In this document: in pieces, positions 1-32,244 of the stretch
Layout of the letters: each line of letters starts with the position of its first letter
Position numbering within the stretch: position 1 is the first letter of the stretch
Assembly: GCA_030614715.1 (NCBI GenBank)
Contig: JAUWTM010000025.1
Coordinates: 1-33,274, forward strand
Direction: 5' to 3'
Origin: Planctomycetota bacterium
Lineage (GTDB): Bacteria > JAJVIF01 > JAPKYR01
DNA length: 33,274 nucleotides
Translations under genes and position numbers: made by a program
Notes under the pieces: generated by a model
Database searches by the model: none
What the model was told of the DNA's origin: nothing
The model's input: only the letters and a program-made list of their open reading frames with translations

Positions 1-2170
1 CATTAGTATTAAGTCCAATTTCTGCCCTCAGCAATTCTGATTCGACTTCAGATTCAGTTTCCCCCAATTCATTGAATGATGTTTTCGCAATCTCAAAGTG
101 TTTCTTAGCTAATTCCCATTCCATTACTGTTCTGTATAACATGCCTAAATTACGATGTCCTAATGCAACGCCAAACAGATCATTTATATTCTTACATGCT
201 TTAATGCATAATTTTGCAGCCCGTATTGCATCGTTTACACGGTAGTAATGATGATTGATGAATTGTGGCAGAAACATTGTTATAGTTCCAATGTTAGTTA
301 GTTTATCATCTTTATGTGCACGCCTGTGCAATTCTGTCATTGTTAACAAATTCCAAATGTTACCCTCAATAATTTCGAGCCTAGGTATTATATGCCTTAG
401 TTGACCAGCCGTTAAAAACGTGTACCATAATCCAAGCGTTTCTGAATACAAATCACAGATTCTATTATAATACGTTACCGTCTTATCTTTGTTTAATAAT
501 CTACTTGCATATGAACAAATAAAAGGGAATGTATGGAAATGCGTAAATTCCTCATATACATCCCTCTCAAGTATTGAAAGTCTAATTAACCAAGTAATAT
601 CATTTTTCCATTCTTCTCCCCATATAAATGCAAGACTTTCAGGGATTTCACCTGTGAGCTCATCAAATAATACACCCGATATTTCTTCGTGAGGAATTAA
701 ACTGAATATACCTAATAGCTCTAGTAACCTTGCATCTTTTTGCTTAAGCAGATCGATGGATAACTGAAGTGACAATTCATAACTAAGTTCTGGAGTTAAT
801 TCTGCTTCTGGTATAGCTTGATGCTGAAGCAGCTTTTCTCTGTTTTCATTTAAATCCTGAATTAGCTCCTCTAACGTACGATGTTCGAGCAAGGGTGCAA
901 TTAGCTTAATTGCATGAGGGTGGCCTGATAAGTAATTTAATAACGGCGCTATTTCTGAATAATCATATTCGTCAAGCTGGATTGGGGCAACATTCGAGAA
1001 CAATTCATATCCTTCGTGAGGGTTCAATCTCCTCAAATCAATAATCTTTTCTCCTGCAATTTCCAATGGCTGTCTTGATGATAACAATATCTTGACGTTT
1101 ATTGTATTCGACAAAATAGATTCAATATACTCAATAAAACCAGCATGAATTTCATTAATTATATCATCGCAATTATCAAGTACTAATAACACATCGAGCT
1201 CTCTTAAAGCACCGATTAACTCATCAGTATCATTAGCTGGCAATCCCATTGCCTGTGAGATTGTGGCAGTAACAGCCTCTGGGCTTTTAGCTCCTTTTAA
1301 TCTGACCAAACAAGAACCATCACTTACCAAACATCTAGCATGCATGTATTTAGCAGACTCTACACTGAGGGAAGTTTTTCCAATACCTGGTATCCCTTTA
1401 ATAGTTACCAGTCGATTATCAATTAAAAGAGATACAATCTTGGCAATTTCATGGTGTCGACCAACGAAATTAGAAATAGTTGGCAAGTTCGATTGAGGTA
1501 GTTCTTTAGATAAATCAACAAACTCACCATTATTCAATTCATCATACACCACGTAATCGTGGGCATCACTTTCAGGAAGCAAAATGAATTTATCTGCTTC
1601 AATAGTCGAATTATCAGTATGGGGATCAGAACTTACCGCCGCTACACCCATTTCAAATGCTTGCTTAACAGTATTCCCAGATAATAGAGAAAGATAAAAA
1701 TGCCGTGTAAACACAATCGCAGCCCGATCATCAATGCTTTGAGTTACTTCGACAGAAACAACATGCGGAACACCAGCTTGGTTGAATACTTCACCAATAG
1801 TTTGTGATTTACATGCACTCACAAACGCAAACTTGATTTGGCAGTCATTGCCAGCAGTTAAAATAGTTTTCAAACCATCTGGAGTAATAACTTGACCCGA
1901 ACCAGCACCATCTTCAAAGAGGAGTCCGTCTAAATCACCGTGACCACTAAAATGTAGGGCTTTACACCCAAGCGTGAGAACCTTCAATAGTATATCAGTT
2001 GTAGCATATTCGAACAGAATCCTGATATCTTTGCCAACCTCAGTCATACTGTCAATTAATAACCTTTTCTCGTGATTAAAGTTCAATCTATCAACGGCGG
2101 TTATTTCCCCGTCACCATGACGAAAGACTTGGGGTTGAGAACATAAAATTGCTAGATCTATTTGGCTCAT
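1..2170 (-). CDS. CHAT protease - NB-ARC ATPase - TPR protein (STAND family), C-terminus beyond window
   Basis: The frame is open from ATG at 2170 to the window edge (723 codons, no stop seen). Residues about 1-200 form a CHAT (caspase-like) domain with the catalytic pair His77 in HFSGHGD and Cys120 in FVSACKSQ. An NB-ARC-type ATPase follows: FVGR near 246, P-loop GIPGIGKT with Lys265, Walker B LLVLDNCDD, and the sensor stretch ILLSSRQPL. The region after about 600 is helical, and LGHRNLGMLYRT with its flanks looks like TPR. This is the STAND plan: a sensor array, a nucleotide-driven oligomerisation switch and a protease effector, probably cytoplasmic. It starts 13 bases after the helicase stop, so it is probably cotranscribed with the DISARM-like genes, with a weak AAAGG ribosome site 11 bases upstream. 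It is far more AT-rich than the helicase gene (line 1141-1200 is 30% GC), suggesting separate acquisition. The domain calls are firm; a defence role is inferred from family and position. Confidence 0.9.
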   Translation of the reverse strand, partial: MSQIDLAILCSQPQVFRHGDGEITAVDRLNFNHEKRLLIDSMTEVGKDIRILFEYATTDILLKVLTLGCKALHFSGHGDLDGLLFEDGAGSGQVITPDGLKTILTAGNDCQIKFAFVSACKSQTIGEVFNQAGVPHVVSVEVTQSIDDRAAIVFTRHFYLSLLSGNTVKQAFEMGVAAVSSDPHTDNSTIEADKFILLPESDAHDYVVYDELNNGEFVDLSKELPQSNLPTISNFVGRHHEIAKIVSLLIDNRLVTIKGIPGIGKTSLSVESAKYMHARCLVSDGSCLVRLKGAKSPEAVTATISQAMGLPANDTDELIGALRELDVLLVLDNCDDIINEIHAGFIEYIESILSNTINVKILLSSRQPLEIAGEKIIDLRRLNPHEGYELFSNVAPIQLDEYDYSEIAPLLNYLSGHPHAIKLIAPLLEHRTLEELIQDLNENREKLLQHQAIPEAELTPELSYELSLQLSIDLLKQKDARLLELLGIFSLIPHEEISGVLFDELTGEIPESLAFIWGEEWKNDITWLIRLSILERDVYEEFTHFHTFPFICSYASRLLNKDKTVTYYNRICDLYSETLGLWYTFLTAGQLRHIIPRLEIIEGNIWNLLTMTELHRRAHKDDKLTNIGTITMFLPQFINHHYYRVNDAIRAAKLCIKACKNINDLFGVALGHRNLGMLYRTVMEWELAKKHFEIAKTSFNELGETESEVESELLRAEIGLNTN

Positions 2171-2183
2171 TGTTAGGTGCCTT

Positions 2184-5100
2184 TCATTGATTCAGCCTAA
2201 TTTGATATATTGCAGCAATCTCTCTGACAACTCGATCCGGATTCTTCAGGATCTGCCTGCCCCAATACACCAGAACAGTCCAAGCCTGCGTCTGGAGGTA
2301 GTTGCGCTTCGACGAATCACTCTCAAGTGTGTCACGGTCGCCATGGTATTGATACCCGTCACAGAATATCGCAATCTTCTCGTCCGGGTATGCGAAATCA
2401 GGTACAGTCACCAGCCTATCTTCTTCCCTAACTTCGAACTGGGCAACCGGTTCCGGTAAACCTGGGAACGCTCTCATCGCTTCCAGCAGAGCAACTTCAA
2501 TCGGACTTTCCGGTGTTCCCCCAACTTCACGATTCCGCTCCTCCAGGTTTTGTTTGAGCGCATCTGCACCCTTATTAACCATAACAGTCTCGACCACTGG
2601 GCTTGATTCACCGGCAAGCTGGAACAGAACCGATCTTACTGATTCCTTATCGAATAACCCGTGAAATCTTTGGTTACCGTACCTTTTCAGACATCTGTAA
2701 CAGGACCGGGAGCATTCATGTCCGAACAGACGATCATAAGCGCTCTGGGCGACTTGTGGCAGGTTCTTCGCTAACTCTTCCAGATATCCTGCACCACCAG
2801 GAGTTGATTCATACAGAATAATCTGTGGACCGAGTGAGTTCGGGCCTTTTCTCCTAACGAAAGAGCCGACTTCCCCAACTTCAACCTCGAGCAATAATGC
2901 AGATCCCAGTAATAATGCCTCTGCCAGGGTCCTCATAAAGCTGTTGCTGACATCAGAATCCGGTGATTCTCCTGGTGGATAAGGAACCGATACGACAAGA
3001 ATATCAGTAGTAAATTCATATCCCAGTACCACATCCCTGATAGTCCCGTTGCAGAACTTAGAATGCCACTCGTCCCAGCGATCGGCTTCTTTAGGTTTAT
3101 CGATAGGATCAAATCGACGGTGCCTGCCACAATCACTGCAAAGGCTGAATCGCTCACCTTCAGGTGAATCGTGTGTCTGTCTGCCCCAGTTTGTAACTAG
3201 AATATCTGCACCACGCCTGTGTTCGAGTGGTGCAAACGGATACTTGTACAGGTCACATTTCGTTTCACCTTTTTCGATCAGCGATTCTTTCAAAATGAAA
3301 TATGCACGATCCCGTGCTTCCTCATCGGCTGTGATCTTCGTTTGTTCCTCAGCCTCGAAGTTATCAAGGAAGGCTACCTGTGTGCCCATCTCAATCAGGT
3401 TACTGCAAGTGGGACAGGAATTACGTAATTGTTCAAGCGCAGTATCACAATGCCTGCAAAAGTAGAACTGCTTTGTTCGACCTGAGGTATCCAGGTCCGA
3501 TTTATCAGTCGGTTTAAACCTGTCGCCTTTCGGACTTCCGTATATCGCCCTTATTGACCGTAGCTTTTTATTGTTCGCATACACGAGATTGCCGGGAGCA
3601 AATTCTCCCAATGCCACGATGGCTGATCTTCTCAGCGTCGGTGTATCCTCAACGCCCGGATCAAGTGAAAAGACATCAGTCGGGAACTGGTACGACGGCA
3701 GCAATCCTGTTGTGGCTAGATAATTCAGGGTGTACGCACTTCGTTTATCCGAGGTAATCTCACGGTAAGCACGCATCCTGGCACCTGCTTTTTTCATGTC
3801 ATACTTTGAGGAGCCGACAGTAGCGAATTCCTTAAATTCTGCATCGAGCCTCAGAACCTGAGCCCACCAATCATCAAGAACACCTTTAACTGACGATCTG
3901 AAACCTTTTAGAATCGACCTTGCATAATTCTCATCGTAAAGCGTCGTTCGACCTTCAGCGAGATCCTGTTTAAATAATGTGACAAGCGACTGAGCGCATT
4001 CGTCCTCTCGTTCCTGGATTTCCTCAGCAATTAATTCGACCTTGTCATCCTTGAAGTTCTGTGGCTTTTTTATATTATCCACGAAATCTTTCATCAGTCG
4101 AGGAAGCTGGGCGTCTAATAGTTCAAGCAAATAAGACCGTAAATGCCTGTCAACAATGCGAGGATTATCAAGTCTGACATTCGGCGGTTTGAATAAACCT
4201 GATATTAACCACTCAGGACGCTCGAATGCGTGTCGATCATGTGGACCTGCACCGCAGTAAGTCGTGACGAATCCGATCCTCAACCGCCGACCTGCACGAC
4301 CGATCCGCTGGGCGTAATTTGCAGGTGTCGGGGGAGCATTCCTGAGAACTACTGTGAGTAATGGCCCAATATCAACTCCCAGCTCCAGGGTTGGCGAACA
4401 TACAAGGATTTCGAGTTTTCCTTCCTTGAAACTTGTCTCACGCTTTGCCCGAACCTCTGCACTAATTTGAGCAGTGTGTTCCTCCAACCGCAGCCTCTGT
4501 GGAGGTCGATCCGTGTAAAGATTAACGTAATAATTATCACGATTAACCGGTTCGGGCTCCAGCATTCCCCGTTTGCATGATGCAGTCGGACATGTCACGA
4601 ACTCGTACGCCCTCCAGACCTTACAAGCCGGACATCTGTACCCACTCTCGGGTTTCACAAGGCGTATCATATTTCGCTGGACCTGGAATCGTTTCAGATC
4701 AGCGGGAATTCCCTTGAACGGCAATTTCTTGGGGACCTCAAGCAATCCGTACTTTTCATCGACGAGGAGCTTAAATGTATCCCTGACAAATCTATCAGCT
4801 GCGTCAAGGCCGCAACCAAGGGCTCTGGCAGTTAGCGCCTGTGGACCAGGCATCCTTCCCTTACCAGAGTCACGAACAATCGCACGGAAGTTCTTCTTCA
4901 GAGTCTGAGGTCGATCAAACGCATACACCATCGGCTTCAAATTCTGGACCTGATCAGGAATACTGAGATGAAATGGTTCCAGAGCAAGCTGTGTGTACGG
5001 GCTCTTATCCAGATTCAACCATTCCTGGAAGAAAGTGAAATTAACCGCACGCTGACGTCTTAGAATATCCAGTAACGCACGTACTAAATCCTTACCAACA

Positions 5101-7370
5101 TCCGGTGTTGTCCCAGCAGCCTCGCATATCTCGATGAAATCCGGATCTTCTGCTATATCATCCAGGTAATCATAACTAAGAGCGACCAGCCCAAGGTTCT
5201 CTAATGATAAACGCAGGTGTGTCGGACGGCAGAATTCCGATGCAACTTCATGCGACAGCACGGTTAGCCAGTTTTTCTCGACCGATTTACCTGGTCTGTA
5301 CTTGATAATCCCCAGCTCCTTGAATCCATCAAGGAGTTTATACGGCAGTTCTTCAATGCCAATCCCATCTTCCGATTCCCTCACGTACTTTTCAATGAGG
5401 TGCCGGATCACGAATTGTCTCTGCCTGTGCCGGGAATATCCGGACTGATGAGCTGCATCCTGACGGTTATCAGCGAATACGAGAAGTTTACGATCATCGT
5501 CTTCGAGTCGATCCAGATGCGGAGTCATTAACATGGAAACTGAGGATGCAGTACCGGTACGTAACGGTGAAATAATCTCCCGCCTCGTTACCCGTGACCC
5601 ACACGCAGGACAGGAATGCCCCTTGCCCTTTTTCATTCGATATTCAACAGCATCACCATCGCAGTTGTCGCAGGATTTACTGTCGGTAATTCGAGCACAT
5701 TTCGGGCATATAAAAACTCCCTCCAGCCCATCATCGATATGTGCAGGAGGTGTCATGCCGGGAAGGAATTCAGAATCTTCCTCGTCGTCTTCTGATGAAT
5801 CTGCCGCATCAGCAAACACATTGACATGTGGTGTTAAAAACCTGGTGAATCTCTCGTCGCTAACCCACCCACTGTCCGGAATCAGTTGAGGAGATCCCTC
5901 ATACACTTTAACCTTAACGAAATCCTGACCGCACGTGCGACAAAGGGCCGCTGGCATCGCCCTTGATCCACATTCAGGGCATGTATCGGACCCATGCTGA
6001 ATGAGCTTCCTACATTCGGTGTTTAAACAAATATTGACGTCATAAATTCCATGACAGAAAAGATGTAATTTCGGCCTTAACCGGGGTGGATGTTCATCAT
6101 CACCGATACTTCCCAGCAGCAGATACGCTTCAACTTCACGTTCAACCTTTTCCAGGCTGAAATCTTTACGGTCCGGGAACGTTTCCCTGACCTTATTCGC
6201 CATGTCCTGTACAGATTTCGGTTTCGCCAGCTCATCTTCGAGGAGCAATACCAACCGATTACCTCGAAGGGCAGCCTTGATTCGTTCAGTCAAGTCACCC
6301 GTTCCCGACAATGGTTTCCCTAATAGTTTTGCGGCTAGATTCTCGATCCGTTCTGAGTCGTCAATCGATAAATCTCTCAGTTCCGAATCGGTAATATCCG
6401 CAGGTGGAGGTGTCCAGTCCGGCACTCCCTCGGGATCCGGGATCTGATACCTTTCGACAATAATGTGCTCAGGCTTGAACTTCTCACCGAATAGGTCAGA
6501 GCCAAACTTTGCGAGGCTTATTATTCCCTCCTCGCCTTCTGCAACGGTCGCCGATGTTCCAATCCCGATCAGTTCACCGGGATCAAGTTCACAATGGGCT
6601 TTCAAACGCCTTATCAAGCATGCGATTTCAGTCGCCAGTGCTCCTCTGTATGAATGAATCTCGTCCAGAACCAGGTATTTCAGGCTTTTCGTGAACAGGT
6701 GGCGATCTTCAGACCGGATTAGCAGGAATTCGAGCTGCTTATAGTTGGTCAAGAGGATATCCGGTGGATCTCTCCGTATTTGTTCCCTCGTAATCCGCTC
6801 AACGCCTTCTAGTGGTGGTTCTGTTAGCGATGAAGAGATCGTGTCGGAATCTCCTGTGTATAAACCGAAAGTAATCGGTAACTCAGTATCACGTAATAGC
6901 CGTCTAAGACGCTCTAACTGGTCGTTAGCGAGGGCGTTCATAGGGTACATCAGCAGGGCTTTGACACCCTTGCCACGGTTCTTCAAACAGTAATCAATCA
7001 CCGGCAGAAGGAAACATTCAGTCTTACCAGAACCAGTACCGGTCGTGACCATCATCGGATCGCCTTCGCTCGAAATGCGGAAAGCTCTCTCCTGATGAGC
7101 GAAGAGTGGGTAATCACCGAATGCCCAGTGTGCGTTTACCAGGGATGGATGAGCGATGCCTTCGTTCACTAAATCGGCAAGCGTTTTTCCAGTTTCAAAA
7201 TCCCTTGCAAGCGTAACGTACGGTCCCTTGATGACGACGTCCGCACTCTGAAGGTGATTCTCGAACTGTTCATTCAGACCAGGATCGAGAAAACTGTACG
7301 ATGTCCGGAGGAATCGCTTGTACTCTTCGATAATATGTCTGACGCAACTGACCGCTGCCTCTGATGCCAT
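2184..7370 (-). CDS. DISARM-like DEAD/DEAH helicase with DUF1998 and C-terminal Vsr/DUF559-like nuclease domain
   Basis: A 1728-residue SF2 helicase. Motif I TGTGSGKT is at 110-117, motif Ia MYPMNALANDQ at 141-151, DEIH at 236-239, motif III TSAT near 272 and motif VI QRIGRAGR near 1020. At least four Cys pairs between 439 and 590 and more later indicate zinc knuckles. The phrase FADNRQDAAHQSGY is typical of large DUF1998 helicases. DUF1998 lies near 1500-1570 (PGGAGY, then CSRSCYRC). The last 130 or so residues carry SPIE, VPDFAYP and CDGYQYHG followed by VLVYWG, a pattern of Vsr/DUF559 endonuclease-like domains. In class 1 DISARM, helicase (DrmA), DUF1998 protein (DrmB) and PLD nuclease (DrmC) are separate; this chain appears to combine the first two and add a different nuclease. 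DruE of Druantia is the alternative relative. The start has AGGTGG upstream; the gene follows the methylase by 33 bases. Confidence 0.85.
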   Translation of the reverse strand: MASEAAVSCVRHIIEEYKRFLRTSYSFLDPGLNEQFENHLQSADVVIKGPYVTLARDFETGKTLADLVNEGIAHPSLVNAHWAFGDYPLFAHQERAFRISSEGDPMMVTTGTGSGKTECFLLPVIDYCLKNRGKGVKALLMYPMNALANDQLERLRRLLRDTELPITFGLYTGDSDTISSSLTEPPLEGVERITREQIRRDPPDILLTNYKQLEFLLIRSEDRHLFTKSLKYLVLDEIHSYRGALATEIACLIRRLKAHCELDPGELIGIGTSATVAEGEEGIISLAKFGSDLFGEKFKPEHIIVERYQIPDPEGVPDWTPPPADITDSELRDLSIDDSERIENLAAKLLGKPLSGTGDLTERIKAALRGNRLVLLLEDELAKPKSVQDMANKVRETFPDRKDFSLEKVEREVEAYLLLGSIGDDEHPPRLRPKLHLFCHGIYDVNICLNTECRKLIQHGSDTCPECGSRAMPAALCRTCGQDFVKVKVYEGSPQLIPDSGWVSDERFTRFLTPHVNVFADAADSSEDDEEDSEFLPGMTPPAHIDDGLEGVFICPKCARITDSKSCDNCDGDAVEYRMKKGKGHSCPACGSRVTRREIISPLRTGTASSVSMLMTPHLDRLEDDDRKLLVFADNRQDAAHQSGYSRHRQRQFVIRHLIEKYVRESEDGIGIEELPYKLLDGFKELGIIKYRPGKSVEKNWLTVLSHEVASEFCRPTHLRLSLENLGLVALSYDYLDDIAEDPDFIEICEAAGTTPDVGKDLVRALLDILRRQRAVNFTFFQEWLNLDKSPYTQLALEPFHLSIPDQVQNLKPMVYAFDRPQTLKKNFRAIVRDSGKGRMPGPQALTARALGCGLDAADRFVRDTFKLLVDEKYGLLEVPKKLPFKGIPADLKRFQVQRNMIRLVKPESGYRCPACKVWRAYEFVTCPTASCKRGMLEPEPVNRDNYYVNLYTDRPPQRLRLEEHTAQISAEVRAKRETSFKEGKLEILVCSPTLELGVDIGPLLTVVLRNAPPTPANYAQRIGRAGRRLRIGFVTTYCGAGPHDRHAFERPEWLISGLFKPPNVRLDNPRIVDRHLRSYLLELLDAQLPRLMKDFVDNIKKPQNFKDDKVELIAEEIQEREDECAQSLVTLFKQDLAEGRTTLYDENYARSILKGFRSSVKGVLDDWWAQVLRLDAEFKEFATVGSSKYDMKKAGARMRAYREITSDKRSAYTLNYLATTGLLPSYQFPTDVFSLDPGVEDTPTLRRSAIVALGEFAPGNLVYANNKKLRSIRAIYGSPKGDRFKPTDKSDLDTSGRTKQFYFCRHCDTALEQLRNSCPTCSNLIEMGTQVAFLDNFEAEEQTKITADEEARDRAYFILKESLIEKGETKCDLYKYPFAPLEHRRGADILVTNWGRQTHDSPEGERFSLCSDCGRHRRFDPIDKPKEADRWDEWHSKFCNGTIRDVVLGYEFTTDILVVSVPYPPGESPDSDVSNSFMRTLAEALLLGSALLLEVEVGEVGSFVRRKGPNSLGPQIILYESTPGGAGYLEELAKNLPQVAQSAYDRLFGHECSRSCYRCLKRYGNQRFHGLFDKESVRSVLFQLAGESSPVVETVMVNKGADALKQNLEERNREVGGTPESPIEVALLEAMRAFPGLPEPVAQFEVREEDRLVTVPDFAYPDEKIAIFCDGYQYHGDRDTLESDSSKRNYLQTQAWTVLVYWGRQILKNPDRVVREIAAIYQIRLNQ

Positions 7371-7403
7371 AAATCCACCTGCTGTTGTATAGTGTTACAT
7401 TCT

Positions 7404-10400
7404 TTAGTTTTGTTGTGTCACTTCACTGAATATTTCACCCGTTTCATTCCATGCATTTAACATTGTATTCAGAGTTTGATTAAAGAAACTCCTTTTTCTG
7501 TTAAAAACTGGGAACGTATTAATTATGTATTTCATATCCTCATGGCTAAGTCCCAATAGTCCAGCACATTTAAGGTTCATCTCACACATTAATATATTAT
7601 ATTCTTGAAAATCATATATTGCTCGTTTGCTATACTCAACATGTAAAATTGGCACATCCGGTATGCTGGTGATATTACTTATTCCTGGTAAAGCACAATT
7701 CTCAATCAAGTAGTTACTGACTTGCATGCCGCATACTCTTAGCCTAACTTGGTAGTCAAACACCATTGAATTTAAATACACCGTAAGCGGAACTTTCAAT
7801 TTATTCGTAATATTGATACCTGTCAATGAGTGTCCAAATACTGAACATTCTGGCAAAATTGATGCAATCATTGTCCTTTCATCAGTATTACGAGCTGGAC
7901 CTCTAAACACGACCTTAGGTTCCATTGAAGGCAAACGTGAATACTTATTCTGATGCGATTCTAAGTTTAACCAACGCATGAGCGGTTTATATTCAAGAAC
8001 AAACTGGTGTATGTGAGCATCTTGGTAAACAGGCCAAAAACCTTTCTCAGCCATACGTGCCCGTGTTTCATCAAAATCACAAGGAATTTCACCAATAATC
8101 TGCTTAACAGAAAACAGTTTTCCAGTCCTTGGGTCAGTCCATAGGTCTTTGTCCCCCGTCATATGATAATCTGAATAAAAACTGGCATTCCAGGTATTAT
8201 CACCTGTGTCGCCAAGACGAGGTCGAGCAGTAATAATGTCTTTGAGGATTCTCTGATCCTTGGAGCTCTTGTACTCTAGGAAAGCATAATTCCCTGGTGA
8301 AAAGTGCTGAATTTCATCCTTGTTTAAAATAACCATGAAGTTTGGCAATGGATTCAAATGCATTTTTAAGTCTTGCATCTCGTTACGCATGAAACAAGCA
8401 ATAAAATCACCCGTAGTAGTATTTGTCTTTTGAAAGACCAAACAAACAAATCTGTAACTTGAATGAATTGGAAAGATCTTTAACCGGTTTTCAAATCCAA
8501 AGAAACGGACGATTGATGTACTATTTAAAATGAGATATCTAATTCCTGTACAACCTTCATTATTATAAGTTGCTGAGGGAACTAAATATCCGACATAACC
8601 TTCCTTAGAGCATAAATTAAAAGCCAATTCAATGAAGAACTTAAAAAGATCTGGGTCACCGCCAGTCTTTTTGCCATTAATAGTCCAAGTATTGTGAGGA
8701 TAAACTCCACACTTTTTGAGATAGGTTGCTGTTTGTTTTATTGTCGCTTGATAAATTGAAAACTCACCTTGCAGGTTTCCATATCTTGTCTCAAGCTGCT
8801 TAATACGAATATTAAGTTCTTCGCCAACATAATTCCGAATTAAAACATCAGCAATACTGTAGAATTCCTTCTTGTCTGGTTTAACCTTATCCCACGGAGG
8901 ATTCCCTATGATGGCATCGAATCCTGAATTTTCGCCTAGGAACACCTCAGGATACTCAAGTTCCCAGTGGAAAAACCGCTCCCGATCCTGGACTTCTTTG
9001 AACTTCATGTACCACGGCTGTTTCCTGACCTCATCCTCCAGCGGGGCAACATCACCACGCTGTTTCATGATTCCCCATGATGCGAGAACCTCGAAATTAG
9101 CCCAGATATCCTCAAGCCCGAATATCGATGCACACCGCAGATCGAACAGGAGCCTAGCATTCTCGACAAGCTGTCGTGACTGTTCAGCAAGGTGTTTCTT
9201 ATATTTGATTTCATCAACAGTCTCAGGTCTGAAATCCCCGTTATCTGGTCGGACATCGATCAGCCGCCTCTGGTGAGCAGCCTTCTGGATATTGTCCATG
9301 AAAACACCCGTATAAAGTCCGAGCTGTGCCTTTTTATTGAGAGCCTTCTTCTTGAAAGGTATCGGTGGATCGCTGAATCGATTAGTCCAGGTCCCGATCA
9401 GTGAATTACCACACCTGATGTGATGGTCGAAATAACTTAGCGGCCTGTCTCCGGCAAGAGATTCAACCCACAGCGCAACTCTTGCCAGCATGACAGCTGT
9501 CGGATTCAGGTCGACCCCATAGAGACATCTCTCTGCGATCCTGCGTTTACACCATGCACGTGCAATTGAACCGGACGCTCGAGCCTGGCTGTCAGGTGAC
9601 CCCCAGTCAGTGTCCCATTTTTCACCTGTCTCAACTGCCCTGATCTTAAAATCTGGCGGTCCACTGTCCCCGTGTTCCTTCACATACGCCTTATGAAGCG
9701 CCTGTCCGAGGAATCGCATTGCACCAATCAGGAAATGACCGCTGCCAGTTGCAGGATCGCACACTTTCAAAGATTCGATCTGTGCGGGAGATTTACCCTC
9801 CACCAGCGGACCCAAGGCATGTTTCACGATGTCATCGACAATTGCCTCGGGAGTATAATAACTCCCACTTCCTTTTCGTGCTGAACCCGGAACGAACAGA
9901 AAATCACCCAGCTCGAAACGACGTATTAAGCGGCACGTCGCTCCCTTTTTGATACTTTCAGCTTCATCGTCCGGTGCATTTTCTAGATCGTCGTCAATTG
10001 CACTCAGGTCAAGTTCCTCGACATCGAAATCATCATCGTCTTCATGTTCGGGATGCAGGCTGGCGGCTTCAGTACCCTCGACAATGGAATAATCACCCTT
10101 AACCACGAGGTTCTTGGTTTCGACAAATCTGACGACCTCATGAGGATCTATGGAGTAGTTTTTACCCGAGACACGGATCTCGATCAACGTCCTGTCCGCA
10201 ATCTTTGGTTCATACTCCAGAAGCCCCTCGTAAACTGATCCTAGTTGCTCAATACCCAGTTCCCTGAAACTGACACGCTCTCGTCCGATTCCCCTGCGGG
10301 GAGATGTTGTTGCAAGCAACAGGACCAGACCGGCAATTGTACGGTCATCCAGTTCAGCCTCAGCAAGAACCAGACCATCAGGAGTAGTTTCAGAGAAGAA

Positions 10401-11450
10401 ATCGCCACCACGAGGGGGAATATTCTCGTGTTCAGGGATATTCAACAGGCCCTTATCGTAAACCCGGAACAAGGCAACCAGGCGCCCCCAGAACCGTTGT
10501 CTATTTTCAGGAAGATCATCCAGGTTGTAGCGGTATAACTGTTCAACCAGGTAAGACAGGGAGTAACTCTCGAAGTAAATATCGTGAGCGAGAAGTTTCA
10601 CGAACCACGCTTCTGCATACAGAATGAACAACAACCGATAAAGACACAACAGCGCAGCATCCCGATACAATCGCAGGTCATCCTGTGACGGATCAAATTC
10701 AAGACCAGCTTCCCTGGCACGATCCCGTTTATCCTCAATAAGGGCACCAATCAGTTTTTCAGCCGAAGTAAATACAGCCCGTTTCAGGTCATCCGAGACT
10801 TTTTCGGCATGAGCACGACTTTCAACCTCGATAGCATCAATTTCTTTTAGCCCTTCGTCATTGGGGATGAAAGTGTCGAGCCGGAACAACAACCGGGCAG
10901 CAGCGAATGATTCACCATCATCATCTTCCAGGCACCCATCAACATTAAGCTCAATGTAGGCACCCTTAGGCCCCTGACCACGTCGACGAATCAACCGGAC
11001 AGACTTATCGTTTACCATCAGACCATAATCAAGACGATTTTCGTCTAGGACTTTTTCGAGCCTGTATTTCGGAGCATCCTTTTTTCGGGATGTTGTAGTT
11101 TCAAACGGTTGACCAGAGTCACCAATGAACACAAACAAAACAGGACGTTTATTTTCTGAAGCAGCAGCTGTATCGCCGTAAAGCGGATAAATACCTTCTT
11201 CCCCGTCACCCATGTAATAGCCGAGAATATCTCGCAGTAAGGAATTGGCATACCGGTCACGAAGAACTGCGGATTTGAGATCCCGTCCCTCAACCCTCTG
11301 ATGCAGTTTTTTCAACTGCCAGAATGTTTTCACATCTTCCTTTCTGAACAACTTTCGCTTCGAGCCTCTGCCGGTGCCTCGTCCGAAAATAGTGCCCAGG
11401 TAGTAGTCCGAGAAGAATCCCTGTCGGTTATGGAGGTGTTTAAAACTCAT
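7404..11450 (-). CDS. drmMI: N6-adenine DNA methyltransferase, DrmMI/PglX-like, 1348 aa
   Basis: Class I SAM-dependent adenine methylase. Motif I DPATGSGHFL starts at Asp565, the acidic motif GVDLNP follows about 100 residues later, and catalytic motif IV NPPW is at 850-853. The long N-terminal region (1-520) is like that of PglX/DrmMI and type IIG proteins, but I see no convincing nuclease active site in it. Residues after 855 should hold target recognition. The ATG overlaps the helicase stop (ATGA, 11447-11450), implying translational coupling, with GGGGGTGG just upstream. In class 1 DISARM the methylase marks host DNA so that phage DNA is treated as foreign. The composition changes abruptly at motif IV: the DNA encoding the front of the protein is about 50% GC (line 9421-9480, 52%), the DNA encoding the back is far more AT-rich (line 8521-8580, 30%), which suggests replacement of the recognition half. 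Confidence 0.85.
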   Translation of the reverse strand: MSFKHLHNRQGFFSDYYLGTIFGRGTGRGSKRKLFRKEDVKTFWQLKKLHQRVEGRDLKSAVLRDRYANSLLRDILGYYMGDGEEGIYPLYGDTAAASENKRPVLFVFIGDSGQPFETTTSRKKDAPKYRLEKVLDENRLDYGLMVNDKSVRLIRRRGQGPKGAYIELNVDGCLEDDDGESFAAARLLFRLDTFIPNDEGLKEIDAIEVESRAHAEKVSDDLKRAVFTSAEKLIGALIEDKRDRAREAGLEFDPSQDDLRLYRDAALLCLYRLLFILYAEAWFVKLLAHDIYFESYSLSYLVEQLYRYNLDDLPENRQRFWGRLVALFRVYDKGLLNIPEHENIPPRGGDFFSETTPDGLVLAEAELDDRTIAGLVLLLATTSPRRGIGRERVSFRELGIEQLGSVYEGLLEYEPKIADRTLIEIRVSGKNYSIDPHEVVRFVETKNLVVKGDYSIVEGTEAASLHPEHEDDDDFDVEELDLSAIDDDLENAPDDEAESIKKGATCRLIRRFELGDFLFVPGSARKGSGSYYTPEAIVDDIVKHALGPLVEGKSPAQIESLKVCDPATGSGHFLIGAMRFLGQALHKAYVKEHGDSGPPDFKIRAVETGEKWDTDWGSPDSQARASGSIARAWCKRRIAERCLYGVDLNPTAVMLARVALWVESLAGDRPLSYFDHHIRCGNSLIGTWTNRFSDPPIPFKKKALNKKAQLGLYTGVFMDNIQKAAHQRRLIDVRPDNGDFRPETVDEIKYKKHLAEQSRQLVENARLLFDLRCASIFGLEDIWANFEVLASWGIMKQRGDVAPLEDEVRKQPWYMKFKEVQDRERFFHWELEYPEVFLGENSGFDAIIGNPPWDKVKPDKKEFYSIADVLIRNYVGEELNIRIKQLETRYGNLQGEFSIYQATIKQTATYLKKCGVYPHNTWTINGKKTGGDPDLFKFFIELAFNLCSKEGYVGYLVPSATYNNEGCTGIRYLILNSTSIVRFFGFENRLKIFPIHSSYRFVCLVFQKTNTTTGDFIACFMRNEMQDLKMHLNPLPNFMVILNKDEIQHFSPGNYAFLEYKSSKDQRILKDIITARPRLGDTGDNTWNASFYSDYHMTGDKDLWTDPRTGKLFSVKQIIGEIPCDFDETRARMAEKGFWPVYQDAHIHQFVLEYKPLMRWLNLESHQNKYSRLPSMEPKVVFRGPARNTDERTMIASILPECSVFGHSLTGINITNKLKVPLTVYLNSMVFDYQVRLRVCGMQVSNYLIENCALPGISNITSIPDVPILHVEYSKRAIYDFQEYNILMCEMNLKCAGLLGLSHEDMKYIINTFPVFNRKRSFFNQTLNTMLNAWNETGEIFSEVTQQN

Positions 11451-14400
11451 TTGCCACCCCCAACAGGGAGTATGAACAGGGCGCTGATCGCCTGTGGTGG
11501 ATCTGGGTCGAAGATCTTTACGAACGACTCAAGCTCATCTTTACGTTGTCCGATTTCCATTTTCACCGCTTCACGTCGTGCATCAAAATCGAGCTTCCGT
11601 CGTTTCTCCTCGAACACAAATAGTGCCTGCTCTTCCCTGAATTTGGCAGCGGCAAGTTTCTCGTCCTCATCAATTTCCTTAAGTCGATCCTCCTCGAAAG
11701 TTTCCAGATCGTCGAGGAGCGCTTTTGCTTTTTGCTTCCTTATTTCGATTAGTTCATCCCGCCGGTTATCCAGCCTGGAAATCGCCTCATCTTTTGCCTT
11801 ATCCAGGAGAGCTACAAAACTTGTCTCGAACAATTCCCGGATATTCGCCAGATCAGCTTCCCCAGGATTTGATCTATCTGTGAATAGGTCGTTATCGGCC
11901 TCTGGGGACAGCATGTTTTCCTCGATATCGATTGAAACCGGTTCGATCCTTTCTTCGATCAACTCAGGATTGCCTTCGTATCCCTCGGCAAGGATTCTTG
12001 AGATAAAAGTAAACAAAACCCGTGGCGATTTAACCTTATCGGATTCCCGTGCCGCCAATCTCCGTGGCGCATACTCAATATCGTCAGAATAAACCTGGAC
12101 CAGTCGCTGTCTGGCTTCGGCACTTATAGCCTTCACCAGAGGATGAATAGGAGTGATAAACTCAACATCGGCTGGCTTGGTTTTTATCGCAACTGATCGC
12201 CTGCACGTAACTTTCGGGTAGAATCGATCTACATTCGGTCCCCTGAAACGCCTTGGAACCTGGATCGTGTAAACGCCTTCATCGTTCACCGGCATCATGC
12301 TGTCACCCAGTATGGCTTGCAGGTGTGACTCCAGGTTCGCATCATCGCCGATTAACGGTTCGGACATCTCCAGGAACTTTTGTAGGTCCTCAATTTCCTT
12401 CGTGACATCGACTCCGGAAACGAGTAACGGCTGGACATTATTAATGTATTCTGCGGTTCTGTCCTCAAAGACATGTTCGTAATTGTCAGCCTCTTTTTCA
12501 GGATCAGCGGTTTCCCCGTCAAGTGCAGTTAGTCTGTCTTCGATACCCGATCCGATGGCAATTCCCAGGATATCAGGCGTCGAAATGCGATCTGACTGCA
12601 TGGTTTCGATTTTCCCTGCCAATCGATTCAGGACGTTGTCCTCGGGGGTATCGGGAAAGTACAAATACTTGATTATGGGCTGTCTATCCTGTCCATACCG
12701 ATCAACACGACCATTACGTTGCTCCAGCCGGTTTGGATTCCAGGGCAATTCAAAATGTATTATTCGCCTGCAGTGATGCTGGAGGTTCAAACCCTCGCTG
12801 GCCGCATCGGTAGCTAAAAGAATTCTCTTGGTTGGTAATGCGAAATCCTCCTGCACTCGCTTCCGCCTTTTCAGAGTCATACCACCACGAAGTACAGACC
12901 ATGTTCCCCTGAACTTGTCATCTCCTTCCAGTGCAGCCTTGATAGCTTCCAGAGTATCGATGTACTCAGTGAATACTATAACTTTTTCAGTTTCATCATC
13001 GTCCAGAACCCAGTGAAGTTCATCAAGTAATGCCTTTATTTTCGGGTCCTGTTCGGGAAGGGATTTAAGTTTTTTCCGTATTCGGCGAACAATTCTGGCT
13101 TCTGATTTTCGGGACTTTTCATCCTCCGGGACAGATGACCTGATTAACCGTTGAGCTATCCTTTCGGCTGTAACCTCGGACATTGGCAGATCAGCCTGAA
13201 TATCCCTGATTTCAGTTTTTTCCGGCTTCTCTTCCCTTTCTTCAACTTTACTGAGAGCTTTTAAACGATTCTCAAGTGTCCGTTCAAGTGCAGCCCTGGA
13301 GGAGAGCATCCTTTTTTTTACGATCTGCATAGCAAACGAAATCAGGTGCTGGTCATCGGAATCGAGGGCTGACTTCGTAACTTTTGAGCAGTAGCTGGAG
13401 ACCTCCCTGTAAAACGGGAGTTCAGTTTCAGGATCGAGATTAACCGGTATGCCGGTGACTTCACGCTTATGGAATGCATCAACGAGATTCCCGTCCTTGT
13501 CCTTTTTCTTAATCTGTGACTTCAGCCTGCGGATTCTCGCACGCTCGATTCGCTCTGTTCTCCTTTCGATATCACCCACGAGTGTAGCTGCGGTAGGTTC
13601 AATGTATTCGATTAGAGACCTGAATGAGTTCTGATAACCGTTATGCGGTGTGGCTGTTAAGAGTAACAACCCACGTGATTTCCTGGCTATCTCAATACCC
13701 AGATTTGTCCGTTTTGTCCGGTACGGATTTTGCGGTGTCCCCGATTCTGACAGGTAATGAGCTTCGTCTACAATAATCAGATCCCAAGGTCGTTGGAAAA
13801 CCTGGTCGAGAATGTTCCGCTTTTTTATGTACTCGACCGATGTCAGTATCCTCGGCAGATTCTGCCATGGATTTACGCCTGCCGGAAGTGAGGTCTGGAC
13901 TCGTGATAATCCCGATGCATTCTCAATCATCTCGAATTGGAGATTGAACTTATCGTACAGTTCATCCTTCCACTGATCGAGTAATCCCGGTGGGGAGATT
14001 ATGAGTATCCGTTTCGCCCGGTTCCTCGAGAGCAATTCCAGAATGCACAATCCTGCCTCGATAGTTTTGCCAATACCCACATCATCAGCGATCAACAACC
14101 GAGGACGGGGTTTCGATAAGATCCGTAACGAGGGAGCCAGCTGATAGGCTTCTAACTCGACCCGTCCGAAAAGTGCTCCGTATAGGTTGCCAATTTCCTT
14201 GACTGTACCCATTTCAAGGGCATCGTGGCTATTCCACCATTGAGTTATTGGCGAAAAACCACGTGGATCGAACCTCAGGTCCTTTACAGGCAATTTCTGG
14301 AGAATGTCAGGGGGAGATACGATTGAAATCGCTTTTCCACCATCGAGAGTTTTAATCTTGAAAAGGAATTTACCGTCCTCAAGTTTCTTGGATCCCTGGA

Positions 14401-14458
14401 GGATGCATAGTCCCTCACGGGATTTAACTCGATCTCCGATGGAAAAACCTGAAGGCAT
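11447..14458 (-). CDS. drmD: SNF2-family helicase/ATPase, DrmD-like, 1003 aa
   Basis: SF2/SNF2 translocase, first gene of the defence operon. Walker A ADDVGIGKTIEAG has Lys131, DEAH is at 231-234, motif III is LTATPH, and motifs V-VI read TDAASEGLNLQ and RLEQRNGRVDRYGQ. The last 150 or so residues are a charged coiled coil rich in Glu, Lys and Arg. I place the start at ATG 14458 (protein begins MPSGFSIGD), which has GGGAGG seven bases upstream; an in-frame TTG at 14470 would put the ribosome site inside the gene. Length and architecture fit DrmD of class 1 DISARM, and the partner overlap with the adenine methylase supports this. Similar helicases occur in other restriction-like loci, so DrmD is a family-level call. 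It presumably moves along DNA to help distinguish or process incoming phage DNA. Confidence 0.85.
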   Translation of the reverse strand: MPSGFSIGDRVKSREGLCILQGSKKLEDGKFLFKIKTLDGGKAISIVSPPDILQKLPVKDLRFDPRGFSPITQWWNSHDALEMGTVKEIGNLYGALFGRVELEAYQLAPSLRILSKPRPRLLIADDVGIGKTIEAGLCILELLSRNRAKRILIISPPGLLDQWKDELYDKFNLQFEMIENASGLSRVQTSLPAGVNPWQNLPRILTSVEYIKKRNILDQVFQRPWDLIIVDEAHYLSESGTPQNPYRTKRTNLGIEIARKSRGLLLLTATPHNGYQNSFRSLIEYIEPTAATLVGDIERRTERIERARIRRLKSQIKKKDKDGNLVDAFHKREVTGIPVNLDPETELPFYREVSSYCSKVTKSALDSDDQHLISFAMQIVKKRMLSSRAALERTLENRLKALSKVEEREEKPEKTEIRDIQADLPMSEVTAERIAQRLIRSSVPEDEKSRKSEARIVRRIRKKLKSLPEQDPKIKALLDELHWVLDDDETEKVIVFTEYIDTLEAIKAALEGDDKFRGTWSVLRGGMTLKRRKRVQEDFALPTKRILLATDAASEGLNLQHHCRRIIHFELPWNPNRLEQRNGRVDRYGQDRQPIIKYLYFPDTPEDNVLNRLAGKIETMQSDRISTPDILGIAIGSGIEDRLTALDGETADPEKEADNYEHVFEDRTAEYINNVQPLLVSGVDVTKEIEDLQKFLEMSEPLIGDDANLESHLQAILGDSMMPVNDEGVYTIQVPRRFRGPNVDRFYPKVTCRRSVAIKTKPADVEFITPIHPLVKAISAEARQRLVQVYSDDIEYAPRRLAARESDKVKSPRVLFTFISRILAEGYEGNPELIEERIEPVSIDIEENMLSPEADNDLFTDRSNPGEADLANIRELFETSFVALLDKAKDEAISRLDNRRDELIEIRKQKAKALLDDLETFEEDRLKEIDEDEKLAAAKFREEQALFVFEEKRRKLDFDARREAVKMEIGQRKDELESFVKIFDPDPPQAISALFILPVGGGK

Positions 14459-14521
14459 AAATCCTCCCAACCTTAGCTAGATCAACATTACTGTCTGACT
14501 AAAAGGGTTCCTCAGAATTGC

Positions 14522-14551
14522 ATTGTAACACTTGGGCACCAGCTGTGTGAA
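14522..14551 (-). promoter_or_regulatory. candidate promoter of the DISARM-like operon
   Basis: On the minus strand TTCACA (14546-14551, 5 of 6 to consensus), an 18-base spacer and TACAAT (14522-14527, 5 of 6) lie 64 bases ahead of the SNF2 gene start. No other pair as good was seen between 14459 and 14617. It is a visual match only. Confidence 0.45.
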
Positions 14552-14624
14552 TCTGAATGATGTTTAAAACCTGCGTATAGTCAATTTTCTGGATTGGATA
14601 ATTCAGTGATTAATGCCATTTCTT

Positions 14625-14657
14625 CGGACCGAGTGGGGGCCCCCGAGCCTCGATCCG
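14625..14657. other. strong GC-rich hairpin downstream of the 79-residue gene
   Basis: CGGACCGAG (14625-14633) pairs with CTCGATCCG (14649-14657), nine pairs including one G-T. The loop contains the self-complementary GGGGGCCCCC (14635-14644). It lies 10 bases past the stop of the minus-strand gene ending at 14667, so it could end transcription or protect an mRNA 3' end, but no clear T run follows on either strand. Confidence 0.45.
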
Positions 14658-14666
14658 GATCACTCA

Positions 14667-14906
14667 CTACATATTACTGGTCTCACACAACTGGATGGTC
14701 CTCTCTTCTTCCAGCAATACTACTGTTTCCTTAACCACCTCCTCGAACTCAGCAACAGAATCGAAGTCATCCAGAAAAATGTAATGATCGGTAATAAGGT
14801 GACGTTCGCCTCCAATCCTGGCTGCAAATTGCCCATCGCCTGTCTGGATATTCTCAGCCCTGATTGTGGCAGGTTCCGAGATTTGATTGTTTTTTGATCT
14901 ATTCAT
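14667..14906 (-). CDS. small hypothetical protein, 79 aa
   Basis: I do not recognise this protein. The start at ATG 14906 is chosen because AAGGAG sits eight bases upstream; an upstream in-frame ATG at 14969 would overlap the preceding gene by 44 bases and lacks such a site. The sequence begins MNRSKNNQISEP, then has a short beta-rich centre (GDGQFAARIGGERHLITDHY) and an acidic helical end (FEEVVKETVVLLEEE). No membrane segment or metal site is visible. It follows the DUF5131 gene by 19 bases on the same strand and is probably its operon partner. It may be an accessory or binding partner of the DUF5131 protein, which is inference from position only. Confidence 0.65.
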   Translation of the reverse strand: MNRSKNNQISEPATIRAENIQTGDGQFAARIGGERHLITDHYIFLDDFDSVAEFEEVVKETVVLLEEERTIQLCETSNM

Positions 14907-14925
14907 GTCGAACTCCTTTTGTTGA

Positions 14926-15666
14926 TTACCAGGTGTCGGGATATTCCTTTCGGATGCCATCCCATCCACTGTTAGCCTTCACGAACCGTGGAATCTCGAC
15001 ACGGTTGTTTTCCAACCATTCCATTGTTGCTGGCGAGACCGGCGTAGGATTAATCCCGCTAAGACCTCCAATCGTGATCCATGCAACAGGCGTCGGGATC
15101 ATCGGTGCTTCATCGTCTTGCCATGGTTCAAGACTCATCCAAACCTTATCAGCCGGAACGTGCTTTAGGATCTCCGTCAAGCGTTCCTGCAACTCCCGAT
15201 TGTTTGTGGCTGTAAATCCGCAGTAGACGTTGTCAGGCCACGGTCCGTATCGGAACCATGCCGGATTCTTCGTAAGTAGCAGACAAATGTGTTTGGGATT
15301 CTCACCGGCGAATTCCCTCATCGCATCTGCTATGTCCTCGGGTTCGACTGTTAGGCTTGATCCGAATATGCGCCAGGCCCACTCTCCGCCAACGTCTCCC
15401 ATGTCGTTGAGGAAGAGAAATTTCTTCTTCCCGCCAATTGGTCCCACCCTATCAGGATGGTAAGTCGGCTCGAAACCGTACGGATACGACCGGTGTCCCT
15501 GTAGTCTACCGTTAAGCACCATTGTTCGTGCATAACAGTACGGGCACCTGTGCCTGCACCCGGTGATAATGTTCAGGACGTATCCTGCACGTCCGGTGAT
15601 CTCTTCCGAGTCACGGATGTAGTCGATTTTCGTCCTGTGGTAACTTTTAATAGTAGTGTTGGGCAT
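14926..15666 (-). CDS. DUF5131 / phage Gp37-Gp68 family radical-SAM-like protein
   Basis: A 246-residue protein with a CxxxCxxC cluster near the N-terminus: Cys37, Cys41 and Cys44 in NIITGCRHRCPYCYARTM, the signature that holds a 4Fe-4S cluster in radical SAM enzymes. Further phrases (FLFLNDMGDV, LLLTKNP, VWMSLEP, WITIGGLSG) match the DUF5131 family, known from phages, plasmids and genomic islands, often next to a three-Cys-motif partner protein. That partner is not visible here. The reaction is unknown. ATG 15666 follows AAGGAGG with ideal spacing. The gene sits between the DISARM-like operon and a mobile-looking noncoding stretch, which fits an accessory island. The family call is secure; a role in defence or nucleic-acid modification would be conjecture. 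Confidence 0.85.
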   Translation of the reverse strand: MPNTTIKSYHRTKIDYIRDSEEITGRAGYVLNIITGCRHRCPYCYARTMVLNGRLQGHRSYPYGFEPTYHPDRVGPIGGKKKFLFLNDMGDVGGEWAWRIFGSSLTVEPEDIADAMREFAGENPKHICLLLTKNPAWFRYGPWPDNVYCGFTATNNRELQERLTEILKHVPADKVWMSLEPWQDDEAPMIPTPVAWITIGGLSGINPTPVSPATMEWLENNRVEIPRFVKANSGWDGIRKEYPDTW

Positions 15667-16267
15667 TTTGCCCTCCTTGTTTTATGGGATAACGTTGGCT
15701 TGTAGCCTTTAACGTCCCCTATTTTTATCAATCAAATACCGATATATAAATACATGTCCTGCTGATGTCGCAGGGTGAGGGGGAAGGACTCCGTAAAGGC
15801 CACTCACTGAGGTTTTCTGCTCTCAAACCACCCAATTTATCCACAATAAACCGGAAATATATCCATTTGTCCTTGCGCTTTATCCCGATATTCAGAGGCT
15901 TGTGCTCTATGCGAAATGACTATGAGGACGTGCGGTTTAAAAAAACCATTCCCATATCACACCTATAACCCATTATTTAATGCATGTCCTTCAGTGGGAG
16001 CATAGCGTGAGGAGCCGTAGCACTCTCTATCGTGAGGTGAGGTGCCTGGTTGAGTCAGATGCGACATGAATGAGGAGGTCAAACACGGAATTACATTGCC
16101 GAACCGGACATAAAAATCCACAACTTCGACGGGGTGCGAGTAATCTAACAGCTCGGAATGGTTACTGTCCAGAGATGGTGTCTTTCTAAGAACTCAGATC
16201 GGATTGTACTGCGACCAGTGCCGGCGGGTACCTATTTTCAAGGGAAACGGCCCACGATCCTAAGAAT
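15667..16267. other. noncoding stretch, possibly containing structured RNA remnants
   Basis: About 600 bases in which I find no convincing gene. An ATATAAATACAT element at 15744-15755 is shared with 18075-18086. Around 16011-16055 AGCCGT is followed by a GCAC...GTGC hairpin and GGTT, and GTGCGAG stands at 16133-16139. These recall pieces of group II intron RNA, but no reverse transcriptase is present and the match is weak. It may be intron debris or an unrelated structured RNA. A short open frame at 15765-15968 on the plus strand has no coding character. Confidence 0.3.
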
Positions 16268-16281
16268 TCAGTGAATGTCCG

Positions 16282-16317
16282 AAAACTGCCCAGTTTTCCG
16301 TAAAACTGGCCAGTTTA
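16282..16317. repeat. two tandem 16-base palindromes, 20 bases centre to centre
   Basis: AAAACTGCCCAGTTTT (16282-16297) is followed by AAAACTGGCCAGTTTA (16302-16317). The second holds a perfect 14-base palindrome AAACTGGCCAGTTT. Their centres are 20 bases apart, about two helical turns, as expected for paired dimer-binding sites. They lie just past the end of the gene at 16381-17148, so a role as 3' hairpins or recombination sites is also possible. Confidence 0.6.
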
Positions 16318-16380
16318 TAGGTGATATCGCCCATTGTTTGCCATGCCGGTTTATTGAGCTGATCACATGGATTCGTGGGG

Positions 16381-17148
16381 CTAGTCCAATAATAACCCCG
16401 AATTCTTCTTTTCCTGACTCAACATCTCCTTTTTGCTGGGTAATCGAGGCCATCGCACTGGCTTTAGTCGGTCGTAATGTATATGTACAGGCTCAAGGAC
16501 AAAGTAGTCATCGGGTAGTATAAAGTTTCTTTCACAGGTGGGACAGTCCGAATTCTCAAGCTTTACAAGTTCATCATGCCACTCACTGACATGTGGATTT
16601 TTCACTTTTACACGCCACTGGTGGCCACAGCGAAAAGTAACATATTCATGGTGTTTAAATTGCTTATACAGCAACCTTGGTTTCGATTGTGTCCACCTCC
16701 ATTCCCTACCTGTATGCTGTCGGTACGCATGGTCTGGCCGAAGGAAAATTAGGTTCTCCGGAACTCCCTGAGGTGGATCTAGCACACCAGTATAACACCA
16801 GATCTTCAGTGGAATATTCATGTTATCTAACGCATTTATAGATCTTGTACGCATTGTGTTACCGAAGATTATCGCCACTTTAATTTGTCCCTCATGCATC
16901 CAGACGATGTCGAGTCTGGCCCGTTTCCCGGAGACTATATCTGTTCTGTAAACACCCGTCGAAAAGTCAAATCCAAACCGACCACAAGCATTTTCAAGCA
17001 GCTTTGTCATGCCCTTTCTCGCTTTAATCGGATGCTGCGTATTTCTCGTCACACGTTTCATACAACCTTCAATCGCAAACCGAATATCAAATAATCTCAC
17101 TTGGCCACGACAACCAATTACAGCTCTCTCTGGTGTTGCGCCGTTCAT
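16381..17148 (-). CDS. uncharacterised protein with possible degenerate nuclease core and zinc-ribbon Cys/His
   Basis: I do not recognise the family. The start at ATG 17148 has GGGAG eight bases upstream; the longer frame from 17175 lacks one. It gives 255 residues. Residues 75-110 (KRARLDIVW, then IKVAIIFGNT, then RTRSINALDN) have the strand-turn-strand form of PD-(D/E)XK folds, with Asp80 in place, but the expected Glu-x-Lys is absent, so if related it is likely inactive. CGH at 174-176 and CPTC at 202-205 suggest one zinc site. The C-terminus is Lys/Arg/Pro-rich. It stands alone, with more than 200 bases on both sides. An inverted repeat lies in its leader (17167-17199). Confidence 0.6.
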   Translation of the reverse strand: MNGATPERAVIGCRGQVRLFDIRFAIEGCMKRVTRNTQHPIKARKGMTKLLENACGRFGFDFSTGVYRTDIVSGKRARLDIVWMHEGQIKVAIIFGNTMRTRSINALDNMNIPLKIWCYTGVLDPPQGVPENLIFLRPDHAYRQHTGREWRWTQSKPRLLYKQFKHHEYVTFRCGHQWRVKVKNPHVSEWHDELVKLENSDCPTCERNFILPDDYFVLEPVHIHYDRLKPVRWPRLPSKKEMLSQEKKNSGLLLD

Positions 17149-31419: not shown

Positions 31420-31429
31420 TTTTCCCCTC

Positions 31430-32236: not shown

Positions 32237-32244
32237 TTTCAATG

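Follow-up and report, generated by a model that had tools for sequence, protein, structure and literature searches.

The window, the whole 33,274-nucleotide stretch of DNA analysed here, forms the start of contig C153 (G000:C153, from base 1) in a 4.29 Mb bin (254 contigs, 87% complete). Judged by its sequence, the three-gene core of the operon at this contig end is an ARMADA system in the ArmA-ArmB-ArmC order, the rarer one, with an ArmC that sits on a deep branch. The gene behind armC encodes a CHAT-NB-ARC protein and is probably a defence gene in its own right that arrived later than the core, possibly carried on the operon transcript. A locus that looks like DISARM is thus placed in ARMADA, and a deep ArmC branch is added to that system. 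The locus also illustrates how deceptive close, operon-like spacing can be within a defence island, given that a Septu pair in a related locus and the CHAT-STAND gene here both lie a few bases behind armC.

Simple longest-ORF calls give four minus-strand ORFs (14470/14458-11447, 11450-7404, 7370-2184, and 2170 to the window edge), spaced by an overlap of 4 and then by gaps of 33 and 13 bases. These coordinates agree with those of an earlier sequence-only reading, and the domains it had named (SNF2 helicase, adenine methylase, DUF1998 helicase-nuclease and CHAT-STAND) are borne out by Pfam and PADLOC profiles. For ArmA, the ATG at 14458 is a preferable start to the TTG at 14470, with GGGAGG ahead of the ATG. 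The features are as follows.

11447..14458, minus strand: ArmA-like SNF2 helicase of the BrxHII/RapA/DrmD type (PADLOC, Pfam, motifs), with an alternative TTG start at 14470
7404..11450, minus strand: ArmB-like adenine methyltransferase of the PglX/DrmMI type (DrmMI, Eco57I, N6_Mtase, motifs)
2184..7370, minus strand: ArmC-like YprA-family helicase with a fused DUF1998/MZB region and a C-terminal PD-(D/E)xK (DUF559-type) nuclease (DruE1, MZB, DUF559, trees)
2171..2183, minus strand: 13-base gap between ArmC and CHAT, where base composition steps
1..2170, minus strand: CHAT-NB-ARC (STAND) protein, N-terminal 723 aa, running off the contig edge, with an apparent continuation at C188 27319-27979
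14522..14551, minus strand: promoter-like match upstream of ArmA, at chance level (motif scan against shuffles)

The last of these had been proposed as the single candidate promoter of the operon. The site (14551-14522) matches the promoter pattern at 10/12; since positions 1-16500 hold 29 such sites and shuffled sequences hold 27.0 (sd 5.2), the match is no evidence of a promoter, and we do not retain that claim.

In passages of the published description, three proteins define ARMADA: a helicase of the BrxHII kind, a methylase resembling PglX, and a YprA-like helicase that has a fused DUF1998 and ends in a Vsr-type nuclease; ArmC is further described there with a BrxA-like domain, zinc modules and a MarR-like insert (Bell et al. 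2025, PMC12458937). By PADLOC, Pfam and NCBIfam assignments, the three core proteins fit the three-protein definition. ArmA, with PADLOC matches to DrmD (446 bits) and BrxHII (325 bits), SNF2-rel and Helicase_C domains in Pfam, and the motifs GIGKT at 132 and DEAH at 235 (numbered from the TTG start), is a BrxHII/RapA-like helicase. ArmB is a PglX-like methyltransferase with both the NPPW (at 850) and the SAM motif (DPAxGSG, at 565); it matches DrmMI at 345 bits and BREX-1 PglX at 42.5 bits, the latter under that profile's cut-off, and carries N6_Mtase/Eco57I domains. ArmC joins DEAD, Helicase_C, MZB (the DUF1998 region) and DUF559 in one protein of 1728 aa. Its best PADLOC match is Druantia DruE (DruE1 506 bits, as against 52 bits for DrmA); MZB (40 bits) and DUF559 (25.8 bits) score above their cut-offs, and MTES_1575 (31.4 bits) and Vsr (20.4 bits) below theirs. 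By these profiles it is a YprA-like helicase with a fused DUF1998 and a C-terminal nuclease of the Vsr type. Within ArmB, the last third (7404-8750, minus strand) has a GC3 of 0.31-0.35, compared with 0.45-0.51 in the preceding part. A swap of the target-recognition region for an unrelated domain is not supported as the cause, as the identity of about 50% to the L037 protein held to residue 1200.

The core had initially been called DISARM-like. The kinship stands, through the DrmD and DrmMI matches; the identity does not, because the DUF1998 region and the nuclease are fused and the helicase is DruE-like, which places the core in ARMADA. Membership in DISARM was therefore rejected: helicase and DUF1998 do not occupy separate genes, and no PLD nuclease DrmC was found by Pfam among the four operon proteins and eight other proteins of the window. 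It could still be argued that the core is a divergent class 1 DISARM with DrmA and DrmB fused, as the best PADLOC matches of two of the three proteins are indeed DrmD and DrmMI. We consider this hardly credible, given that the third protein prefers DruE over DrmA by the bit scores above, has a nuclease domain of its own and groups with ArmC of the ARMADA type (in trees built without any DISARM row), and that the operon proteins include no PLD DrmC.

To place ArmC, genomes were scanned with an ArmC alignment, and the best 80 of 581 relatives were taken. Among these, the ArmC proteins of five loci (L033-L037) are 45-49% identical to that of the window, and the remaining 75 of the best 80 of 581 reach at most 34%. 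An ArmC fragment in genome G364, with 40% identity, probably belongs to the same branch. Among the best 80 of 581, the genomes that carry the branch bear the labels Clostridiales, Aminicenantes, Acidobacteria, Thermoflexus and Rhodocyclales. In all trees, full local support unites the window ArmC with those of L033, L034, L035 and L037. Rooting on YprA places this group on the side of Type I at a local support of 96, as a deep separate branch, in a FastTree phylogeny of 58 hand-picked rows, six of them YprA outgroup rows, that carries local support values and no bootstrap. In midpoint-rooted trees, from one of which ArmC shorter than 1400 aa (L036 and others) was excluded, it lies on the opposite side from Type I. 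Within the branch, L034 and L037 are the only loci in which a 3' flank of at least 1 kb follows an ArmA-ArmB-ArmC set; L035 has such a flank with ArmA/B out of view, and several branch members lie on short contigs.

The core is also found on plasmids, where its three genes co-occur in haloarchaea, Thermus, Deinococcus, Chloroflexota and cyanobacteria. ArmA-ArmB precede ArmC, in some cases with intervening genes, in Haloquadratum, Natrinema, Allomeiothermus, Thermus and Chroococcidiopsis, and ArmC comes first in Chlorohelix and Deinococcus. A Pseudanabaena plasmid (L026, 11563-23491) holds two facing ArmC-like genes with ArmA and ArmB homologs and no CHAT. Single-protein scans of viral contigs with ArmC and the CHAT protein, whose reach covers close relatives only, found none.

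The fourth gene encodes a CHAT domain (31.9 bits, cut-off 24) and an NB-ARC domain (28.5 bits, cut-off 23.5) in Pfam. The His77/Cys120 pair pointed out in the sequence-only reading is present and is conserved in the sole full-length homolog found (G294, 30% identity), which also shares the P-loop GxPGIGKT; the frame is open. The gene is interrupted by the contig end. However, bases 1-29 of the window are identical at 28/29 positions to the last 29 of contig C188, where a minus-strand frame carries on in phase for 219 aa at 33% GC (the overlap reads RAEIGL-N/H-TN). As such, C188 appears to supply the missing part of a protein of about 930 aa, through a join inferred across an overlap with one mismatch. 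The larger ORFs that come next on C188 are convergent, with small minus-strand ORFs of 89-144 aa inside or overlapping them, which makes CHAT the apparent last gene. An AlphaFold model computed from the sequence alone has a mean pLDDT of 34, too low to be of use. The homolog in L165 matches TPR in PADLOC, and the window's cut copy matches no TPR family in Pfam. Beside the L165 homolog lies a gene (11971-13236, minus strand) for a 421-aa protein with a hydrophobic, by eye membrane-like C-terminal tail and no Pfam match, a possible substrate of the protease.

Outside the operon, other genes with a defence character were observed. At 30124-32946 (minus strand) lies a low-GC trio (GC3 0.24-0.26) of a 233-aa protein, a Ser/Thr kinase (Pkinase at 4e-41; mads6/PD-T4-6 in PADLOC) and a 443-aa protein without a Pfam or PADLOC family, which looks like another acquired defence module. 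Across the seam, C188 (L175) encodes a HEC-06/Orf5-like protein at 6127-8676 (plus strand) and a ShosA/PsyrA-like gene with a small partner gene at 10679-12276 (minus strand), so that the far side, too, looks like a defence island. The window further holds a DUF5131 protein upstream of the operon (14926-15666, minus strand) and a protein with an AadA_C domain (44 bits; 24670-25401, plus strand).

We then asked how often a CHAT gene accompanies the core. For this purpose, a CHAT profile was built from 26 CHAT regions and that of the window; it recovered 55/56 held-out sequences in four half-splits, as well as the G294 homolog, which lay outside the training set, at 2.7e-11. ArmC is present in 106 of 107 loci examined (the exception being L069; the 106 are not de-duplicated, and L026 was checked apart). 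In a profile search of the fetched flanks, CHAT was found beside none of the other ArmC genes (0/106 loci), nor did it appear among all ORFs of at least 80 aa in the loci collected at that stage. At least 1 kb of 3' flank is available in 81/106 loci; 63 of these 81 also contain ArmA or ArmB, and in 23 of the 63, ArmA/B stand solely before ArmC. ArmA/B are out of view in 36/106 loci, some of which may be Druantia or other kin. On the other hand, 21 of the 49 genomes searched whole (drawn from the best 80 of 581) contain CHAT genes somewhere; CHAT is therefore not rare in ARMADA genomes, yet is unseen beside armC. The words "CHAT", "caspase" and "NB-ARC" occur nowhere in the main text of PMC12458937, whose supplementary tables may list a CHAT neighbour.

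Conversely, matches to the CHAT protein at 1e-12 were found in 17/385 other genomes, and full CHAT and NB-ARC coverage in G294 alone; since two best candidates were scored per genome, further homologs may have been missed. The 19 kb around the G294 homolog contain no ArmA, ArmB or ArmC; the phylum-level search around G294 covered two genomes. A plasmid tblastn with the CHAT protein returned 120 records, none at 80% query coverage; among the 30 rows listed, nearly all span NB-ARC onward, and three cyanobacterial ones (Tolypothrix, Microchaete; 22.6% identity) extend into CHAT. Counted by recurrence in these loci and flanks, the link between CHAT and core that the sequence-only reading had drawn thus fails. 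Its remark that a caspase-like STAND protein is an unusual neighbour is right. Composition points the same way: GC3 is 0.29 in CHAT, 0.47 in ArmC, 0.42 in ArmB and 0.49 in ArmA, and the change falls where ArmC gives way to CHAT. Because GC drops in the last third of ArmB as well, composition alone is no proof of separate arrival.

The position behind armC is occupied by varied genes in other loci. Of the 23 loci with ArmA/B before ArmC, 10 have a following ORF on the same strand and no more than 50 bp away, and the identified ones are of several unrelated kinds. Profiles find ArmD-like helicases in L024 and L079, and we read those of L025, L062 and L110 from sequence as ArmD-like too; L042 has a DUF6361 protein, and L056 and L202 have co-directional ORFs without a class. 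In L045 (15925-18132, plus strand), an AAA_5 protein, presumably of the McrB type, overlaps armC by 4 bases, which fits a reported link of such cassettes to McrBC. In L037, a Septu-type pair, PtuA1 at 518 bits and PtuB1 at 205 bits, starts 9 bp behind armC (15245-17141, plus strand) and has a GC3 of 0.37-0.41, compared with 0.49-0.65 for the ArmC of that locus. This PtuAB pair resembles the CHAT gene in lying directly 3' of an armC of the window's own branch; its proteins are, however, unrelated to CHAT-NB-ARC, and the position thus accepts different passengers. Since Septu is a defence system in its own right, such adjacency does not show one machine. In 7/23 loci (L023, L034, L039-L041, L092 and L112, by crude ORF calls) the next ORF lies on the opposite strand, suggesting that the core can persist without a fourth gene. 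A "3'-5' exonuclease" of Thermus/Allomeiothermus was considered as a new partner and rejected as ArmD-like, on UvrD/GajB-type matches in L024 and a RelE-like start read after passages of PMC12458937.

A precedent for a functional fourth gene comes from Type II ARMADA. In passages of PMC12458937, its fourth gene, ArmD, is a RelE-like toxin fused to an NTPase (RelE-GajB) and is essential, deletion abolishing defence; the E. coli system requires all four genes and most motifs tested. Because ArmD is essential in the same slot, a protein that likewise joins a toxin to an NTPase could belong to the system here, with translocation or DNA breaks activating the STAND module and the protease either serving as effector or providing back-up cell death. 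The 13-base gap on the same strand fits an operon, the CHAT gene is apparently the last gene before the convergent ORFs on C188, and the window's ArmC branch is thinly sampled (L033-L037 among the best 80 of 581, and the G364 fragment). We nevertheless regard this reading as rather unlikely, in view of the 0/106 count, the closest homolog without ArmA/B/C nearby, the composition step and the opposite-strand neighbours in 7/23 loci (crude calls). Moreover, protection by the E. coli Type II system is reported, in those passages, to be non-abortive: propidium iodide uptake was minimal, and no signs of a metabolic shutdown were seen. The same report weighs against the proposal, made from sequence, of restriction backed by a suicide protease, for which adjacency is the one observation offered. 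A broader version, in which the slot 3' of armC is a docking place for exchangeable effectors (ArmD, Septu, CHAT-STAND) that are transcribed together with ARMADA, touch it and receive its signals (DNA ends or stalled translocation), seems to us improbable. If it were true, no earlier ARMADA would have had a caspase-like effector gated by a STAND module, and a functional slot would make ARMADA a modular effector platform.

Alternatively, the CHAT gene might belong to the defence island without any relation to the operon, driven by a promoter of its own and either silent or without a part in defence. Other low-GC genes nearby (window 30124-32946; C188, L175 10679-12276), as in an island of mixed origin, are compatible with this. 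It is nonetheless very unlikely, as the frame is open, His77/Cys120 and the P-loop are common to the G294 homolog, and the motif scan of 1-16500 shows nothing promoter-like at 2170-2300 on the minus strand. We favour CHAT-NB-ARC as a separate defence unit behind an ARMADA operon, because of the GC3 step, the CHAT-free flanks, the G294 homolog without ArmA/B/C, the Septu pair in the L037 slot and the mixed slot occupants.

As for function, ARMADA most likely acts on phage DNA directly and would clear it by methylation, translocation and nuclease cutting. The CHAT-STAND protein most likely works by itself, as a sensor-protease of the sort that papers on conflict systems propose: in passages of PMC10907252 and PMC8195603, caspase-like peptidases and repeat-bearing STAND NTPases are proposed to act through regulated cell death. 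It would sense an infection cue through its C-terminal repeats and, once bound to ATP, oligomerise, which would switch on the CHAT cysteine protease; cleavage of a host or phage protein might then stop growth. None of these steps would require the ARMADA proteins.

With the CHAT/caspase STAND conflict proteins of those passages, the fourth gene shares the pairing of a caspase-like peptidase with a STAND NTPase; the passages themselves do not feature ARMADA (PMC10907252, PMC8195603), and the C-terminal part of the gene lies outside the window. The core shares DrmD and DrmMI homologs with class 1 DISARM but, instead of separate DrmA and DrmB genes, has both in one 1728-aa protein that is DruE-like and carries its own nuclease. 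Type II ARMADA, by passages of PMC12458937, is likewise ordered ArmA-ArmB-ArmC and likewise has a fourth gene with a toxin domain and an NTPase; the window differs in having CHAT-NB-ARC instead of a RelE-GajB ArmD, and an ArmC on another tree branch. In Type I, according to those passages, the YprA gene is usually first, and the order ArmA-ArmB-ArmC is given only for many archaea and cyanobacteria, so that the window departs from it in gene order, in the deep separate branch of its ArmC and in the CHAT-NB-ARC gene behind. It nevertheless shares with Type I the BrxHII-like helicase, the PglX-like methylase and the YprA helicase with a fused DUF1998 and a C-terminal PD-(D/E)xK (Vsr-like) nuclease, and rooting on YprA helicases, unlike midpoint rooting, also puts its ArmC with Type I.
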